Below are positions 24,986-64,000 of a stretch of DNA of 64,000 bases, one piece after another. How positions within the stretch are numbered: the first letter of the stretch is position 1; each line of letters starts with the position of its first letter. Made by a program: the position numbers and the translations under genes. This DNA is from an uncultured Lachnospiraceae bacterium. Its GTDB lineage: Bacteria; Bacillota; Clostridia; Lachnospirales; Lachnospiraceae. Under the pieces are notes generated by a model, which was not told the origin of the DNA, did no database searches, and was given only the letters and a program-made list of their open reading frames with translations. The stretch is from assembly GCA_900319245.1 (NCBI GenBank), contig ONNQ01000006.1, positions 1 to 64,000 on the forward strand, written 5' to 3'.

Positions 24986-25822
24986 TTAGTTCCATACAGG
25001 GACAAAATGATGGTGCGTGACCCTCTGTTCCACAGGAGGAAGCTGCATATAGTCCCCATATATTCTTGTCAGGAGCTTGTCATAAGCCGCCGGTATATAA
25101 ACTTTGATGTCTTCAAAGTCGGTCAGCACAAGATCTTCGATCTCATCCTCGTAGTAGTAGCTTTTCTCCCAGTTTGCAATATACGTGGCTTTGTAAAGTC
25201 TGGAATCGCTTCCGCGGTATCTCTGCATGATCTCCTCGCGTTCCTGACGGATCTTATTAAAACCGTGGAGAAGCCCCGCACGCATCCTCATCGGAAGATT
25301 GAATAGCATTTTGATCCTGCGCTTTGGAGGCAGCGTCCGATAATACCGCGCGGGAAGCATGTAGGTGATCTTACGATTCAGTGCCCTGACTTCTTTATTC
25401 TGGGCAGCCCGCTCTGCCAGATCCTCCGATGTCTTGTCCAGAATAAAAATATCAACAAAGGGGCCCAGATTGTCGACATCGGGTATGCCTTTGAGTTTGA
25501 GCGTCGCGGTCCGTGAACACACTCTGGAAAAATAGAAATAGTAATACGGAGAAGTATCGCCCGATAACACGTAATAATCGTCCGTCTCTTCGGGCATGAT
25601 CGCACAGAATTTCTCATATGCGTCTCTGGTCATAATAATATCGATATCATCGTCCCACGGAATAAATCCCTTGTGCCTTACTGCGCCGAGCAGGGTGCCG
25701 AATGCGACGAAATAAGGAATATTATGGCGGCCGCAGATATCATGGATCGCTGCCAGCACTTTTTTGACCTCTTCTTTGTATTCGTCTGGTGTGAGCGGAA
25801 CGCCGGTTTGTTTGGAAGCCAT
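24986..25822 (-). CDS. licD: LicD-family phosphotransferase
   Basis: The 278-residue protein has the LicD signature FGTLLGAVRHKGFIPWDDDIDI near the N-terminus. LicD enzymes transfer phosphocholine from CDP-choline (or, in some members, other phospho-groups) to surface glycans or teichoic acids. It starts one base after the wzx stop, in the same operon as TagD and a CDP-glycerol transferase. The choline activation genes lie at 59-63 kb, so phosphocholine is the likely donor group. Family members with other donors exist, so the exact group is inference. Confidence 0.88.
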   Translation of the reverse strand: MASKQTGVPLTPDEYKEEVKKVLAAIHDICGRHNIPYFVAFGTLLGAVRHKGFIPWDDDIDIIMTRDAYEKFCAIMPEETDDYYVLSGDTSPYYYFYFSRVCSRTATLKLKGIPDVDNLGPFVDIFILDKTSEDLAERAAQNKEVRALNRKITYMLPARYYRTLPPKRRIKMLFNLPMRMRAGLLHGFNKIRQEREEIMQRYRGSDSRLYKATYIANWEKSYYYEDEIEDLVLTDFEDIKVYIPAAYDKLLTRIYGDYMQLPPVEQRVTHHHFVPVWN

Positions 25823-59295: not shown

Positions 59296-60840
59296 TCATT
59301 TTTCACCGATCTCTTCCAGATAGCTCTGTGCGTCCCGGATGAAGCTTGCGATGATCAGCATGATGACCAGCCCGATCGGAAAGGCCGCGATGATCGACAC
59401 GGTCTGCAGATTATTCATGGAGCCCTCGCTGAAGATCAGCGCGATAGGAAGCATGATCAGGAGGATGGCCCAGAAGAGCTTCATGCGAGTGCCGGCCTCC
59501 TGCCCTTCCCTCAGCTCCCGGTAGCTGTACTGCGAAGCAACCAGCGTGATGCTGTCAAAGCTCGTCGCGTAAAAGGCGATCATGGATGTGACCAGCACCA
59601 CCAGCACAATGCGCCACATGGGAAGCGTCTGGATCACCGCGATCACCGTCGCGTAGAGGTCACCGCCGGACTGCGCAAAGAACCCCAGTACGTCAAAGGT
59701 TCCATGCATCTGCAGGCCCAGTCCATAGTTGCCGAGTATGATAAAGGAAATGAGCGTGCTGGCCACGCCGAATATATACGTGCCAAGAATGACCTGCTTG
59801 ACCGTCCTGCCCCGGCTGATGCTGCCCATGAAAAAGGGCGACGCCACCGCCCAGACCATCCAGTAGGCCCAGAAGAAGATGGTCCAGTTCTGCGGAAAGT
59901 TGGTCTCACGCAGGGGATCGGTCCAGGTGCTCAGCACGATAAAGTTCTGCATCATGTTGCCAAGGGCAGAAAATCCCGTCTCAATGATATACACAGGCTG
60001 TCCGCCGAATATAAGGACATATCCCAGCAGCACTCCAAAGAGCGCCATGCAGGCGTTGGCCAGCCAGGATACTCCCTTGATTCCCTTCAGGACCGCAATG
60101 GTATAGACCAAGCAGATCACGATGAGAATAGCAATCGTCATAAACTTGGAGCCTGGGATTCCGAAGAGCGTCGTGAGCGCCAGTGACAACAGAGGGGTGG
60201 CCACAGAGAAGGTCGTAGCCGTCCCGGCGATCAGCGCAATCACAGCCAAAATATCGATCAGCTTTCCCTGCCATCTGTCCGTCCGGTCTCCCAGAATAGG
60301 CCGGCACGCCTCGGAATACTTCTGTTTGCTGCGCTTTCTGACATGCAGCATAAAGCCGAAGCAGGCCGCCAGCATGGCGTAAAAGCTCCAGGGAATAAAT
60401 CCCCAGTGAAAGAGCGGATAGGTGCTGGCCCAGTCCTGAATGGATCCCATCTTCGCGATGTGTGACTCCTGCGCATAGGAGATCCACTCGCAGAAGGAAT
60501 AGAACAGGATGTCCGCCGCCAGTCCGCAGGTGAACACCATGGCACCCCAGGTGAAGAACTTGTACTGCGGCTTCTCGCCCGGCTTTCCCAGTGTGATCTG
60601 TCCAATCGGCGAAAAGCTCACCCACAGCGACACGATCAGGACGCCGAGTCCCACGATCAGATAGTAAGTGCCCATCTCGTTGCCCAGAAAGCCGCGGATC
60701 GCGCTGAGCGCACTCGTCGATTGCTCGGGCTTTATAATAAAGAAGAGACACAGTGCAAAAATGGCGGCGAACGGATACAAGGTCGTTGCCGGGTCGATCA
60801 ATCTCCTGTTATTGCTCTCTGTATTTAATCCTTTGCTCAT
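59296..60840 (-). CDS. BCCT-family transporter (choline/betaine/carnitine type)
   Basis: The 514-residue protein has 12 predicted membrane helices with the BCCT pattern FFWAYWMVWAVASPFFMGSISRGRT. BCCT proteins take up quaternary ammonium compounds. Next to choline kinase and cytidylyltransferase genes, choline is the natural substrate; this would take the place of LicB. ATG at 60840 has GGAG seven bases upstream, so I do not use the open frame to 60999, which would overlap the licC-like gene in full. Confidence 0.92.
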   Translation of the reverse strand: MSKGLNTESNNRRLIDPATTLYPFAAIFALCLFFIIKPEQSTSALSAIRGFLGNEMGTYYLIVGLGVLIVSLWVSFSPIGQITLGKPGEKPQYKFFTWGAMVFTCGLAADILFYSFCEWISYAQESHIAKMGSIQDWASTYPLFHWGFIPWSFYAMLAACFGFMLHVRKRSKQKYSEACRPILGDRTDRWQGKLIDILAVIALIAGTATTFSVATPLLSLALTTLFGIPGSKFMTIAILIVICLVYTIAVLKGIKGVSWLANACMALFGVLLGYVLIFGGQPVYIIETGFSALGNMMQNFIVLSTWTDPLRETNFPQNWTIFFWAYWMVWAVASPFFMGSISRGRTVKQVILGTYIFGVASTLISFIILGNYGLGLQMHGTFDVLGFFAQSGGDLYATVIAVIQTLPMWRIVLVVLVTSMIAFYATSFDSITLVASQYSYRELREGQEAGTRMKLFWAILLIMLPIALIFSEGSMNNLQTVSIIAAFPIGLVIMLIIASFIRDAQSYLEEIGEK

Positions 60841-60860
60841 ATTCTTTCTCCAGATTGCTT

Positions 60861-61571
60861 TCAATGAATACCGGCGTAGGTCTGATCCACAGCGATGAGT
60901 TCTGCAAGACTGTCGATTTCTATGATGTCCTCTGCCCGCATGGGACGGATGCCGAGCTGATATTCCTCGGGATGACAGAACAGCGCCACGTCGTCCCAAT
61001 AGATCTGCCGGTTCTCCTTCTCTTCAAATTCCAGTTCCAAGTGCCCCTTGAGCCGCGCGCCGTCTTCTGCCGACCAGCGGCTGATGCTGTAGAGCTGCCA
61101 GCCATGACTGCCACCCGTTCTGGAGCAGTGCGTCACGATCCCGTCTTGCACCGTCATGAGCCATTCTCTGGTCTCCTCATCGGTCCACACTGCATTGTAG
61201 CCGGACCGCTCAAATTCTGGTGCCAGTATAGAAGGATCGTAAATGATCTGGTCTCCGTCCAGGATCATGCAGTCGCCGAGATGCTCTCTTGCCACATACA
61301 GCGACGAAATGTTGTTGCAGGTCTCAAAATAGGGATTCTCAATCAGCTCCACCCCCGGATACAGGGATCGCAGCTCCTCAAACTGCTCCTTGAGATAGCC
61401 GACGACAATGTAAATCTCCCGGATTCCGTTGGTATGAAGCCCCTCGATCACCGTTTCGATCATGCGCCGTCCGTTCACGCGGATCAGCGGCTTGGGCGTC
61501 TGTTCCGTGAGCGGATGCATCCGCTCTCCCTTTCCGGCCGCCATGATGATCGCTCTTGACACTTTATGCAT
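60861..61571 (-). CDS. licC: LicC-like choline-phosphate cytidylyltransferase
   Basis: The 236-residue nucleotidyltransferase has AIIMAAGKGERMHPLTEQTPKPL cut here to MAAGKGERMHPLT, MILDGDQII and IYWDDVALF, with a C-terminal EDIIEIDSLAEL, all close to the LicC pattern. It would form CDP-choline from CTP and phosphocholine. ATG at 61571 has GGAGG nine bases upstream. It overlaps the upstream fusion gene by eight bases and lies 20 bases before the transporter gene. Confidence 0.9.
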   Translation of the reverse strand: MHKVSRAIIMAAGKGERMHPLTEQTPKPLIRVNGRRMIETVIEGLHTNGIREIYIVVGYLKEQFEELRSLYPGVELIENPYFETCNNISSLYVAREHLGDCMILDGDQIIYDPSILAPEFERSGYNAVWTDEETREWLMTVQDGIVTHCSRTGGSHGWQLYSISRWSAEDGARLKGHLELEFEEKENRQIYWDDVALFCHPEEYQLGIRPMRAEDIIEIDSLAELIAVDQTYAGIH

Positions 61572-63405
61572 GTATATCTTCCTCCACTTCCTGTGCCATT
61601 TCACTCATCAATTCTCTGGTATATCGATAGTAGTCCTTGGCATAGCGGTACTGCCGCAGCGAATATTCGCCAAATTCTACGCCAAGAAGCAGTTTATATT
61701 CGCACCAATTGCTCCACAGAAGACCACAGGCTGCTATGTAGGCGTATATTTTGGCAACGGTCTGCAGTGGCACGCCGTCCAATACATGCTGTGCCTTTGC
61801 AGTTCGAATATCCTCTGCTTCGATCGCCCGATCCGGATCCCAATACAGCCCGATCAGCCGGTCCACACAGCTCTTGTCGTACATGCTGTAGATGCAGAAC
61901 ATGGCAATATCCACATGAGGATCCTGCATGCCGGCGTACTCCCAGTCTGTCAATTGCAGCTGTTCCCTGCCTTCCGCATCCTTGTAGAAAAGGAAATTAT
62001 CCGGCACCGCGTCTATATGTGTCAGCACCGGTGCACTCGCATACTTGTCAATAAAGGGCTTCAGGGACAATACGCGTTCCTTGGTCCTCTCGTAATCCCT
62101 ATAGACCGAAGGCTGTCCGCCTCGCAGGTTCTCGTAGAACTCGGTCTGCCCGAATATGTCAAAAACGTGCCCAACCTCGATCTTCATCTCGTGGAAGCTG
62201 CGCAGCTTCTTCATGCAGCGCCTCAGGTCGGAAATCGACTCCGCATCGCACACGCGCACGCCTTCCAGATAGCGGGTGATCTTATACCCGGTCACCGGAT
62301 CGATGTAGACGGGATCATCGCAGAGTCCCCTTCCTGAGATTGCTCTGTAGACGTCCGCCTCCTGGGCCCGATTAATCAACTTGTCCGTCCCCTCGCCGGG
62401 CACGCGCATGATGTATTTGCCGCCCCGACAGGTAAAGAGGAAGGATCGGTTGGTCATGCCCTTCTTGAGCACCTCGATCTCCCTGATCTCCTCCGCATCA
62501 CAGGAAAAGACCTGTTGAATGACACCAATGACCTCCGACTGGAGCTGACTGGATCCGCTGTCCAGATCCCGTAGCTGCTCGTAGGTATTGATCTCCACGG
62601 CATTTTCCGATGACACGATTCTGGCCGGGATGATCATCTTCCCACGATCGTACAGCGCCTCTTCCCAGAAAGCCCCATCCTTGCCAAATGTGCCGCAAAG
62701 CGTGCGGATTCGTTCTCGCACTGTCTCTGCCGTCTTCCCCTGCAGGTAGGCAATGCCGATCATGGCGTTGCCGGTCCCATCGGCCGCCACCAGCTCCCGC
62801 TTTCGGTTGACGCGGACATCGCTCTCCGGATCCTCACGGTCACTGACCATGTACCAGGAGTAGAGCTCGCAGGCGCTGAAGGGATTTTCTGCACACCAGA
62901 TGTCGCAGGGCACAATATAGGCATTATCGATGTGATCCAATACCAGTTTCATGGAATACAGGTTGTTCCTGGACGCATATTCCCGGTTCACGATCAGCTG
63001 CACGCCGTATTCATCGATCAGATAATCGAACTTCTCCTTCATGAAGCCCACGACCACATAGATTTCGTAGATGCCGGCCTCATGAAGCTGCAGGATCTGC
63101 CGCTCGATCAGTGTCTGTCCATTTACCTCCAGAAGTGCCTTGGGGGACTCCAGGTTGATAGGCACCATGCGCATGCCGAATCCCGCGGCCAGTATGATCG
63201 CCCTGCGCGGTCTGTGCTCCTCTCCCAGCGCTGCCGCCTTTTCCGTCAGCTGTATGTCCGCGTTCAGATAGCCCTCCTTCTCCAGGCTGCGCAGTGAACG
63301 GTTGACGACCCCCAGTGAGTGCCCCGAGTCTTCCGCCAGAATTCTCTGGCTGACGAAGGGCTTATTCATTAATATTTTCATGATATCAAGCTCTTGGATG
63401 TTCAC
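61564..63405 (-). CDS. licA: HTH-nucleotidyltransferase-choline kinase fusion (LicC/LicA-like)
   Basis: The 613-residue protein has three parts. Residues 1-60 are a winged-helix-like segment (QELDIMKILMNKPFVSQRIL, GVVNRSLRSLEKEGYL). Residues about 68-290 are a sugar-nucleotidyltransferase-like domain (IILAAGFGMRMVP, KALLEVNGQTLIERQI). Residues about 300-600 are a LicA-type choline kinase (MTNRSFLF, HIDAVPDNFLF as Brenner motif, LTDWEYAGMQDP). It would phosphorylate choline and perhaps also use it in nucleotidyl transfer. GTG at 63405 is the start: GGAGG is five bases upstream, while the ATG at 63417 has no site. The HTH may let the enzyme regulate its own operon. Confidence 0.88.
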   Translation of the reverse strand: MNIQELDIMKILMNKPFVSQRILAEDSGHSLGVVNRSLRSLEKEGYLNADIQLTEKAAALGEEHRPRRAIILAAGFGMRMVPINLESPKALLEVNGQTLIERQILQLHEAGIYEIYVVVGFMKEKFDYLIDEYGVQLIVNREYASRNNLYSMKLVLDHIDNAYIVPCDIWCAENPFSACELYSWYMVSDREDPESDVRVNRKRELVAADGTGNAMIGIAYLQGKTAETVRERIRTLCGTFGKDGAFWEEALYDRGKMIIPARIVSSENAVEINTYEQLRDLDSGSSQLQSEVIGVIQQVFSCDAEEIREIEVLKKGMTNRSFLFTCRGGKYIMRVPGEGTDKLINRAQEADVYRAISGRGLCDDPVYIDPVTGYKITRYLEGVRVCDAESISDLRRCMKKLRSFHEMKIEVGHVFDIFGQTEFYENLRGGQPSVYRDYERTKERVLSLKPFIDKYASAPVLTHIDAVPDNFLFYKDAEGREQLQLTDWEYAGMQDPHVDIAMFCIYSMYDKSCVDRLIGLYWDPDRAIEAEDIRTAKAQHVLDGVPLQTVAKIYAYIAACGLLWSNWCEYKLLLGVEFGEYSLRQYRYAKDYYRYTRELMSEMAQEVEEDIHA

Positions 63406-63434
63406 GAACACCTCCATTTACTATTTTGGTGAAC
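63400..63434. promoter_or_regulatory. Inverted repeat at the start of the choline operon
   Basis: GTTCAC (63400-63405) and GTGAAC (63429-63434) form an inverted repeat that spans the ribosome site and first codon of the fusion gene. It could be an operator or a translational control hairpin. Confidence 0.4.
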
Positions 63435-63442
63435 TTTCAATC

Positions 63443-63471
63443 ATCATATGACAAAGCGCCGACTCTGTCAA
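63443..63471 (-). promoter_or_regulatory. Promoter of the choline operon
   Basis: On the minus strand TTGACA and TATGAT are 17 bases apart, giving a near-consensus promoter 38 bases upstream of the GTG start. Confidence 0.85.
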
Positions 63472-63482
63472 TAAATCCCCTA

Positions 63483-63511
63483 TTGACAGTCCTCTCTGTC
63501 TGTGTTATTGT
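63483..63511 (+). promoter_or_regulatory. Promoter of the GntR-family gene
   Basis: TTGACA and TATTGT are separated by 17 bases. The -35 mirrors that of the divergent choline promoter; the two hexamers are 11 bases apart. Confidence 0.8.
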
Positions 63512-63517
63512 CGTATT

Positions 63518-63551
63518 GTATTAAGTAACTAATACAGTATTACAATAGTAC
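63518..63551. promoter_or_regulatory. Probable GntR operator
   Basis: GTATTA-AGTAAC-TAATAC is a perfect inverted repeat just after the -10 element, followed by GTATTACAATAGTAC with a second GTA...TAC pair. The GTxTA...TAxAC form is typical of YtrA-type GntR sites, so autorepression of the downstream gene is likely. Confidence 0.65.
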
Positions 63552-63679: not shown

Positions 63680-64000
63680 ATGGGATGGAACTTTAACGAC
63701 AATACTCCCATTTACCTGCAGATCATAAGCGGTCTGCAGAGAGAGATTGCAAGCGGAGCTTATCCGCCGGGGTCGCGGCTGCCGTCCGTCCGCGAATTGG
63801 CGCTGGAAGCAGGCGTCAACCCCAACACAATGCAGCGAGCGCTGGCAGAACTGGAAAGGCAAGGTCTTGTCAACAGTCAGCGCACCGCAGGACGGTTTGT
63901 AACGGAAGATACTGCCGCGCTCTCCGCGCTGCGCAGGTCCATGAGCGATACGATCATCGCCAACTTTTTTCGCAATATGCATGGCCTCGGCCTTGCGCAA
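63680..64000 (+). CDS. GntR-family regulator (YtrA-like), N-terminal part
   Basis: The first 107 codons of a plus-strand gene that leaves the window. The winged-helix domain is clear: NTPIYLQIISGLQREIASGAYPPGSRLPSVRELALEAGVNPNTMQRALAELERQGL has the standard GntR pattern (core GSRLPSVREL and NPNTMQRAL). The next segment (ALRRSMSDTIIANFF) is the usual YtrA-type dimerisation helix start. ATG at 63680 has GGAGG five bases upstream. It diverges from the choline operon and is a good candidate for its regulator. Confidence 0.92.
   Translation, partial: MGWNFNDNTPIYLQIISGLQREIASGAYPPGSRLPSVRELALEAGVNPNTMQRALAELERQGLVNSQRTAGRFVTEDTAALSALRRSMSDTIIANFFRNMHGLGLAQ

Follow-up and report, generated by a model that had tools for sequence, protein, structure and literature searches.

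Why should an enzyme that appears to activate choline begin with a domain of the DNA-binding type, and why should its gene be followed by another gene for the same kind of nucleotidyltransferase? This question is raised by a stretch of 64,000 nucleotides from an uncultured Lachnospiraceae bacterium (contig ONNQ01000006.1 of assembly GCA_900319245.1; hereafter the window), in which a minus-strand gene encodes a winged-helix domain with a helix-turn-helix (HTH), a nucleotidyltransferase and a kinase in one chain, here called the fusion. The genes behind it encode a separate LicC-like nucleotidyltransferase and a transporter of the BCCT family. The fusion is likely, with a probability of roughly 0.8 as judged from sequence comparison, to be an enzyme-repressor of the NadR type that controls choline uptake and activation, whose putative operator, the inverted repeat TGTTCA-N24/25-TGAACA (two arms separated by 24 or 25 bases), is found at its own promoter and, in more distant relatives, before unlinked BCCT genes.

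The open reading frame (ORF) of the fusion spans 61564-63417 on the minus strand, and translation probably starts at the GTG at 63405, giving 613 residues, because the context of this start is conserved in relatives. Two residue numberings are used below, that of the full ORF (617 residues) for Pfam matches and nucleotidyltransferase residues and that from the GTG start (613 residues) for kinase residues. The first-pass annotation had described a winged-helix-like segment, an NTP-transferase domain and a LicA-type kinase with an intact HxDxxxxN motif, a composition borne out by Pfam, PDB-sequence matches and AlphaFold. Pfam matches HTH_24 at residues 6-51 (E-value 9.7e-10; 38.3 bits against a cut-off of 21.9), NTP_transf_3 at 73-173 (4.8e-15) and Choline_kinase at 315-510 (1.5e-12), together with APH. 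The domains extend over approximately 1-63 (MarR-like winged helix), 68-282 (LicC-type nucleotidyltransferase) and 300-612 (LicA-type choline kinase). The closest solved proteins by sequence are pneumococcal LicC (1jyk, 1e-29) and LicA (4r77, 1.8e-24), and the kinase fold is matched by Foldseek to 4r7b (TMt 0.82). The AlphaFold model of the full-length protein has a mean predicted local distance difference test (pLDDT) score of 89.2. Its N-terminus is predicted to form helices 3-14, 20-27 and 31-43, a wing and helix 55-63 (pLDDT 92-96 for this block), so that an HTH fold is predicted in residues 1-60. HTH_24 is matched in 40 of 40 HTH segments scanned, taken from the window and from roughly every other locus of L005-L084. 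Modelled alone, the winged helix reaches a pLDDT of 94 and a Foldseek TM-score of 0.86 over the 66-residue query to the MarR-type structures 3nrv and 2fa5, with a best E-value of only 0.016; the predicted fold of this domain is thus that of the MarR family. A weak profile match to TIGR04176 MarR_EPS was also obtained. MarR regulators, which are dimeric, and MarR_EPS regulators are small, stand-alone proteins, whereas this winged helix, which shares their fold, is joined to enzymes as the N-terminus of a 613-residue chain.

If the domain is a regulator, its site should be conserved along with it. A tblastn search gave 454 confirmed relatives in the genome contig collection, the best 80 of which underlie the locus counts, and the DNA before 80 relatives of the fusion gene shares the repeat TGTTCAYGAAAA...TGTTCATGAAC. 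Scored as two copies of the core GTTCRYGAA (at least 15 of 18, with spacings of 12-40 allowed), a pair is present in 74 of 81 upstream regions, the window included, at a spacing of 24 (41 regions) or 25 (33) and no other, compared to 30 of 1620 shuffled sequences at any of the allowed spacings. With the spacing fixed at 24/25 and a looser score, for which no shuffle control was run, the pair is found in 80 of 81. In distant fusions of the same family (32-41% identity), it is mainly the outer arms, TGTTCA-N24/25-TGAACA, that are kept, often exactly and away from the start codon. Of 131 upstream regions scanned for gaps of 10-40, 79 have gap 24 and 40 have gap 25 (approximately two each in shuffles); lesser excesses occur at other gaps, for example 26 regions at gap 18 and 19 at gap 28. 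At one mismatch or less (two or less in brackets), the arms occur in 76 (95) of 98 regions of at least 50% identity, the window included, and in 21 (21) of 22 at 32-50% identity, the shuffle counts being 3 (80) of 1960 and 1 (18) of 440, respectively; in reversed order they occur in only 2 of the 98 and 1 of the 22. When the relatives of at least 32% identity are pooled, the operator lies on the promoter or start in 116 of 120 at up to two mismatches (shuffles, 98 of 2400). None of the four kinase-only relatives has it (0 of 3 loci at up to two mismatches, with shuffles at 0 of 60, and L272 in genome G318).

The window site, AGTTCACC...GTGAACA at 63399-63435, has one mismatch to the consensus, and the half-site pair in IUPAC form occurs once in the 2.9 Mb genome of the window, at the fusion gene. 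The region 63400-63551, which the first-pass annotation had proposed for a binding test, contains all but one base of this predicted site. A test on fresh data was possible with three annotated loci that were retrieved once the motif was fixed, out of four plasmid records carrying the fusion as 'NTP transferase domain-containing protein' or 'phosphotransferase' (the fourth is a second L. eligens). All three have the site: it is exact in Lacticaseibacillus paracasei (46% identity), Collinsella aerofaciens (30%) has one exact site and a second with one mismatch, and [Eubacterium] eligens (60%) has one with two mismatches, a level also reached by approximately 4% of shuffles.

Sites away from the fusion gene indicate what else could be regulated. 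The search for the exact motif covered 37 genomes with a fusion (17 from a close group and 20 from a divergent group of 22) and, for comparison, 24 genomes of the family, of which 21 have no fusion match at 1e-60 and three are kinase-only. The 20 divergent-group genomes contain 41 exact sites, of which 14 are fusion promoters and 27 lie elsewhere; 13 of the 27, all from different genomes, directly precede a BCCT gene. The other 14 comprise two before an ABC permease operon and one before a methyltransferase-like gene, all in genome G344, and 11 more, eight of them inside long ORFs. Among the 14 extra sites of the 17 close-group genomes, one falls on the start of an SSF symporter gene; BCCT genes are represented neither among these sites nor among the 15 of the comparison genomes. 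Counted from the transporter side, 16 of the 20 divergent-group genomes have BCCT genes (20 genes, being 21 rows less one fragment), 13 of which carry an exact site within 260 bases upstream and 14 a site with at most one mismatch, compared to 0 and 6 of 2000 shuffles. By genome, a site-bearing BCCT gene is found in 14 of the 16, and G429 has its BCCT gene directly behind the fusion. Left out of this regulon were extra half-site pairs in the LicC gene of L023, in the fusion of L048, in an ORF of L040 that looks cytidylyltransferase-like by eye and approximately 290 bases upstream of a corrinoid-protein gene in L056. The two G344 sites before the permease operon (L186, 2901-3013) are both exact and stand 77 bases apart; the substrate of that permease is possibly a choline compound.

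The position of the site suggests how it could act. In 18 of 21 divergent-group fusion promoters with a site, the first T of TGTTCA is also the last base of a TANNNT hexamer, and the same overlap of the predicted -10 box and operator is seen in most of the BCCT promoters compared; in the window, the operator follows closely behind the predicted -10 box (Table 1). A location just downstream of a -10 box implies a repressor position, as far as predicted promoter boxes can tell, and because the first arm falls between the -10 box and the predicted transcript start, the arrangement argues for a DNA-bound repressor and against an mRNA hairpin. In the proposed mechanism, the LicA domain would phosphorylate choline and the LicC-type domain would turn the product into cytidine diphosphate-choline (CDP-choline), while the MarR-like winged helix would bind the inverted repeat directly. 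The half-sites are 30-31 bp apart, about three helical turns, which would suit a dimer of a large protein. Binding at or shortly after the -10 box would block initiation and repress both the protein's own operon and, where the transporter is unlinked, the BCCT (choline) transporter gene at its distant location. The occupancy of the catalytic domains, by phosphocholine or CDP-choline together with cytidine triphosphate (CTP), could set the affinity for DNA, so that uptake and activation would stop when activated product is plentiful. The suggestion of the first-pass annotation that the HTH lets the enzyme bind DNA and so regulate its own pathway is supported by genome comparison, through the conserved putative operator at its own promoter and before distant transporter genes. 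A more far-reaching version seems to us slightly favoured over its denial: that the fusion is an independently evolved second NadR, in which one polypeptide phosphorylates choline and synthesizes CDP-choline, and its winged helix reads active-site occupancy and represses, through TGTTCA-N24/25-TGAACA and from Firmicutes into Actinomycetota, a choline-uptake regulon made up of its own operon, unlinked BCCT genes and, singly, an SSF symporter and an ABC permease operon, with the second LicC making the CDP-choline and the fused copy serving mainly as a gauge.

The roles of the two nucleotidyltransferases can be addressed from their conserved residues. In the fused copy, R83, K93, D172 and W251-E252 (617-residue numbering) are 100% conserved in 120 sequences of at least 32% identity, R83 falling to 75% in eight more distant ones. 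In the separate LicC, R17, K27, D105, D107 and W192-D193 are conserved at 98-100% in 49 relatives of at least 50% identity. These residues correspond to the R and K of the nucleotide loop, the metal-binding D and the second acidic ligand. Both enzymes thus keep conserved active-site positions, and the fused one can be ruled out as a dead domain; from its sequence it is taken as an active enzyme, whose occupancy may also inform the HTH. The idea that it must use another substrate or be purely regulatory is not supported, given this conservation and the relatives that have no adjacent separate LicC. A softer form of the idea, which could be combined with the enzyme-repressor reading and is the best placed of the alternatives though still doubtful, is that the fused copy is mainly a sensor that binds CTP or CDP-choline with little catalysis, while the separate LicC does the chemistry. 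The presence of two nucleotidyltransferases in one operon fits this idea, as does the second acidic position, which is W-E in the fused copy versus W-D in the separate gene and in pneumococcal LicC, and so does one related operon with kinase, LicC and BCCT genes that lacks the fused nucleotidyltransferase and HTH. It is opposed by the invariant residues of the 120 sequences, by eight of 65 loci that have a BCCT gene yet no separate LicC match (two of them, L033 and L079, have additional nucleotidyltransferase sequence attached to another ORF) and by the lack of a LicC match in 22 of 22 divergent-group loci within the 1.4-3.0 kb downstream that was covered, although a LicC gene may lie elsewhere in those genomes. 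L033 (8007-10505) apparently encodes an 832-residue version of the fusion with a second nucleotidyltransferase joined to the kinase end, as deduced from its length and the missing separate LicC. In the kinase, H463, D465 and N470 of the HxDxxxxN motif (613-residue numbering) and D487-W-E are invariant in 46 aligned sequences. This domain is predicted to phosphorylate choline, a substrate supported by the LicA and LicC homology, the BCCT and LicD genes and nearby choline-binding proteins; ethanolamine or another amine is possible instead.

Several observations weigh against the enzyme-repressor reading. The second half-site lies on the start codon in 64 of the 80 regions with a pair and the pair is clear of it in 16, so part of this half-site could reflect coding constraint on conserved start codons. 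No operator was found at up to two mismatches in four sequences of at least 32% identity (L047, L062, L073 and L121). The most distant Lachnospiraceae group (28-31% identity) is without a site of gap 24/25 at one mismatch or less in 8 of 8 sequences, and at two or less four have one, compared to 0 and 3 of 160 shuffles; one member, L138, has AGTTCA-N26-TGAACA instead, so that in this group either the operator would differ or the protein would not be a regulator. The window genome contains one further near-site only (C38:157224), and therefore only autoregulation is indicated there. Genome G476 has a BCCT gene without a site and none behind its fusion, and the pneumococcal lic operon is controlled by CiaRH according to PMC8317062, so other regulatory solutions exist. 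The strongest single point comes from 60 genomes without a fusion match at 1e-60, whose 12 BCCT rows leave nine genes after removal of two fragments and of L269, which has no upstream DNA: two of these nine, in G361 and G346 (loci L263 and L265), are preceded by an exact site. A profile search found no fusion in either of these drafts (250-270 contigs, 89-93% complete), and the gene may be missing from the assemblies. As an observation apart, the 28-31% group (L138-L143, L145 and L148) combines HTH, nucleotidyltransferase and kinase with a different recognition helix, and may regulate another pathway through another site.

The two genomes just described would also suit a different explanation, in which the operator belongs to a separate choline-responsive regulator that co-occurs with the fusion and the HTH segment does not bind operator DNA. 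This is unlikely in view of the operon itself, which unites the fusion, nucleotidyltransferase and BCCT genes at 52 of 65 loci, of the loss of the site along with the HTH (4 of 4) and of its retention from Lachnospiraceae to L. paracasei and Collinsella. The loss of the site also accompanies a changed recognition helix, whose S, L, G and N are kept at 95-100% at 50% identity or more and at 100% at 32-50%, the two site-bearing groups, the pattern being broken at 28-31%. Still less probable is an ordinary bifunctional LicC-LicA enzyme whose winged helix is a module for protein-protein contact or dimerisation that binds no DNA. Catalytic residues are conserved as it would require, and a fused LicC-LicA enzyme without a known regulatory role exists in Treponema denticola (LicCA), yet the conserved operator and its copies before unlinked BCCT genes would be left unexplained. 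Least probable, by a narrow margin, is an RNA element, a TGTTCA/TGAACA hairpin around the ribosome-binding site that controls translation, with the HTH a relic or dimerisation module: the repeat does flank the ribosome-binding site and include the start codon in most close relatives, but in 18 of the 21 divergent-group promoters its first arm shares a T with the -10 hexamer, which places this arm ahead of the predicted transcript start, the BCCT promoters are similar, the spacing is 24/25 in all 74 GTTCRYGAA pairs, and relatives without the HTH-nucleotidyltransferase part also lack the site.

Enzyme-repressors as a kind are known. BirA is an enzyme that doubles as a repressor. Trifunctional PutA is a metabolic enzyme that does the same, as described in PMC5293562. 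Both resemble the role proposed for the fusion in being metabolic enzymes with an N-terminal DNA-binding domain and autogenous repressors, and differ from it in their unrelated pathways and domains; the fusion would serve a two-step activation pathway plus a transporter regulon. The nearest counterpart is NadR, which in Enterobacterales consists of an HTH, a nicotinamide mononucleotide adenylyltransferase and a ribosylnicotinamide kinase in that order, whose bound ligands alter its hold on DNA and most of whose orthologues outside Enterobacterales are enzymes without the HTH (PMC12421817). The order of the parts, the salvage of a nutrient and the repression of pathway genes by the enzyme itself (synthesis and salvage genes for NadR; only proposed for the fusion) are alike. 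Unlike NadR, the fusion has a LicC-type NTP_transf_3 domain, a LicA/APH kinase and a MarR-like winged helix, its half-sites are 30-31 bp apart and it occurs in Firmicutes and Coriobacteria. No NadR enzyme is among its Pfam, PDB-sequence and Foldseek matches, which are of the LicC and LicA types, and its sequence thus makes it an analogue, not a homologue, of NadR. In the lic1 system (LicA-LicB-LicC) of pneumococcus and Haemophilus, as presented in PMC10434233, PMC7368946 and PMC8317062, a homologous kinase and cytidylyltransferase, a transporter in the operon and LicD in the genome are likewise found; the window system differs in that an HTH, a LicC type and a LicA type make up a single polypeptide, in its second LicC and in the use of BCCT for LicB in most loci, and the pneumococcal operon answers to CiaRH and not to a fused HTH. 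Added choline lowers lic1 and lic2 expression in pneumococcus, which has ordinary lic genes (PMC13393172), and this is the direction expected for the fusion, although by analogy it is only a hint. The two pneumococcal papers (PMC8317062 and PMC13393172) name no choline sensor in the parts consulted. A paper on an HTH-nucleotidyltransferase-choline kinase regulator was not found in the literature searched, whose coverage leaves out most subscription journals, and within it the pairing, operator and regulon appear to be new. Surface phosphocholine, choline-binding proteins and, via demethylation, the fate of dietary choline all depend on how gut bacteria use choline. If the reading is correct, the fusion would be such a choline sensor, one whose DNA site is defined and whose regulon is predicted, and it would clearly exemplify convergence on the NadR design.

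The architecture is frequent within the family of the window and scattered beyond it. In the family, 49 of 250 genomes match the fusion at 1e-60, of which 46 reach the N-terminal domain and three (G222, G521 and G375) match the kinase only; in an even sample of the phylum, 12 of 299 match at 1e-20, at full length in two only, the window's own genome and G246. It is thus no rarity in the family. Record titles of the best 80 relatives name Lachnospiraceae, Oscillospiraceae, Erysipelotrichaceae, Lactobacillus, Streptococcus, Trichococcus, Clostridium, Coriobacteriales and Atopobiaceae as hosts. In the 65 of these loci with at least 3 kb downstream, the fusion, a LicC-like nucleotidyltransferase and BCCT are together in 52, which shows that the grouping is not due to chance; in 13 of the 52, the nucleotidyltransferase is less than 50% identical to that of the window. 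The remainder comprises the eight with BCCT without a separate LicC match, four with LicC without BCCT and one with neither. The first-pass annotation placed BCCT in the position of LicB, which holds at the window locus and not throughout the relatives, some of which have a LicB-like transporter (by eye) or an annotated DMT transporter; in Collinsella, the DMT gene is next after the fusion. In L. paracasei, rfb genes are followed by LicD, the fusion, the nucleotidyltransferase and BCCT. There the LicD-fusion-nucleotidyltransferase-BCCT module (L284) lies beside rhamnose genes on a mobilizable plasmid, and it can therefore move between strains. Choline-binding repeats are present in 3 of 3 downstream neighbours of the divergent group that were picked by eye and examined with Pfam.

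Corrinoid, URO-D-type and MttB-family genes stand beside the fusion operon in L056 (3845-6457), L040 (4055-6466) and L044 (11342-15189), which fits the phosphocholine demethylation route described for Eubacterium limosum (PMC12155760). The cluster of that organism (MthK, MthB), with choline kinase, corrinoid protein and MttB-family methyltransferase, shares its kinase, corrinoid and MttB setting with these three loci, and a text search of the main text of the paper gave no mention of helix-turn-helix, nucleotidyl or BCCT.

In the window, the three minus-strand genes between 63405 and 59296 follow one another in the order fusion, LicC-like gene and BCCT gene (Table 1). The LicC-like gene has its ATG (61571) inside the 3' end of the fusion gene and is separated from the BCCT gene by 20 bases, which indicates an operon layout. 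The separate nucleotidyltransferase matches LicC 1jyk at 3e-34, and the third gene matches Pfam BCCT at 1.4e-125, the only such match in the window's genome, which is 87% complete.

Table 1. Positions of the choline operon features and its predicted control elements in the window
Feature	Position	Strand	Basis
Fusion gene, 613 residues (winged helix, nucleotidyltransferase, kinase)	61564..63405	-	Pfam, PDB-sequence matches, AlphaFold, Foldseek, alignment
Winged-helix domain, coding part, 66 residues; recognition-helix region SLGVVNRSL	63208..63405	-	Pfam, alignment, AlphaFold, Foldseek
Separate gene for LicC-like CTP:phosphocholine cytidylyltransferase, W-D at second acidic position	60861..61571	-	Pfam, PDB-sequence match, alignment
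BCCT-family (betaine/carnitine/choline) transporter gene	59296..60840	-	Pfam
Candidate operator AGTTCA-N25-TGAACA, covering the ribosome-binding site and GTG start of the fusion gene	63399..63435	-	Upstream comparison
Predicted -10 box TATGAT of the fusion promoter, 7 bases upstream of the operator	63443..63448	-	Sequence, inference
Predicted -35 box TTGACA, 17-base spacer	63466..63471	-	Sequence, inference

Elsewhere in the window, a LicD-family gene at 24986-25822 on the minus strand (Pfam, 3.2e-41) is a candidate phosphocholine transferase, and three further LicD matches outside the window bring the genome to four. The perfect repeat CTGTCAATA-N7-TATTGACAG at 63465-63489 holds the -35 box and for that reason was at first considered to be the operator. 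It was dropped, since the final 150 upstream bases of L006-L009 do not show it and it does not figure among the top repeats listed for other relatives, L029 having a partly similar one. This repeat carries a -35-like TTGACA on each strand. A gene at 63680-64000 on the plus strand, assigned by eye to a GntR-type regulator and running off the window, is divergent from the fusion gene, and the two promoters stand back to back. The palindrome TGTATTA-N6-TAATACA (63517-63536) was assigned to this GntR gene and not to the fusion, and resembles the operator of YtrA-type GntR regulators.

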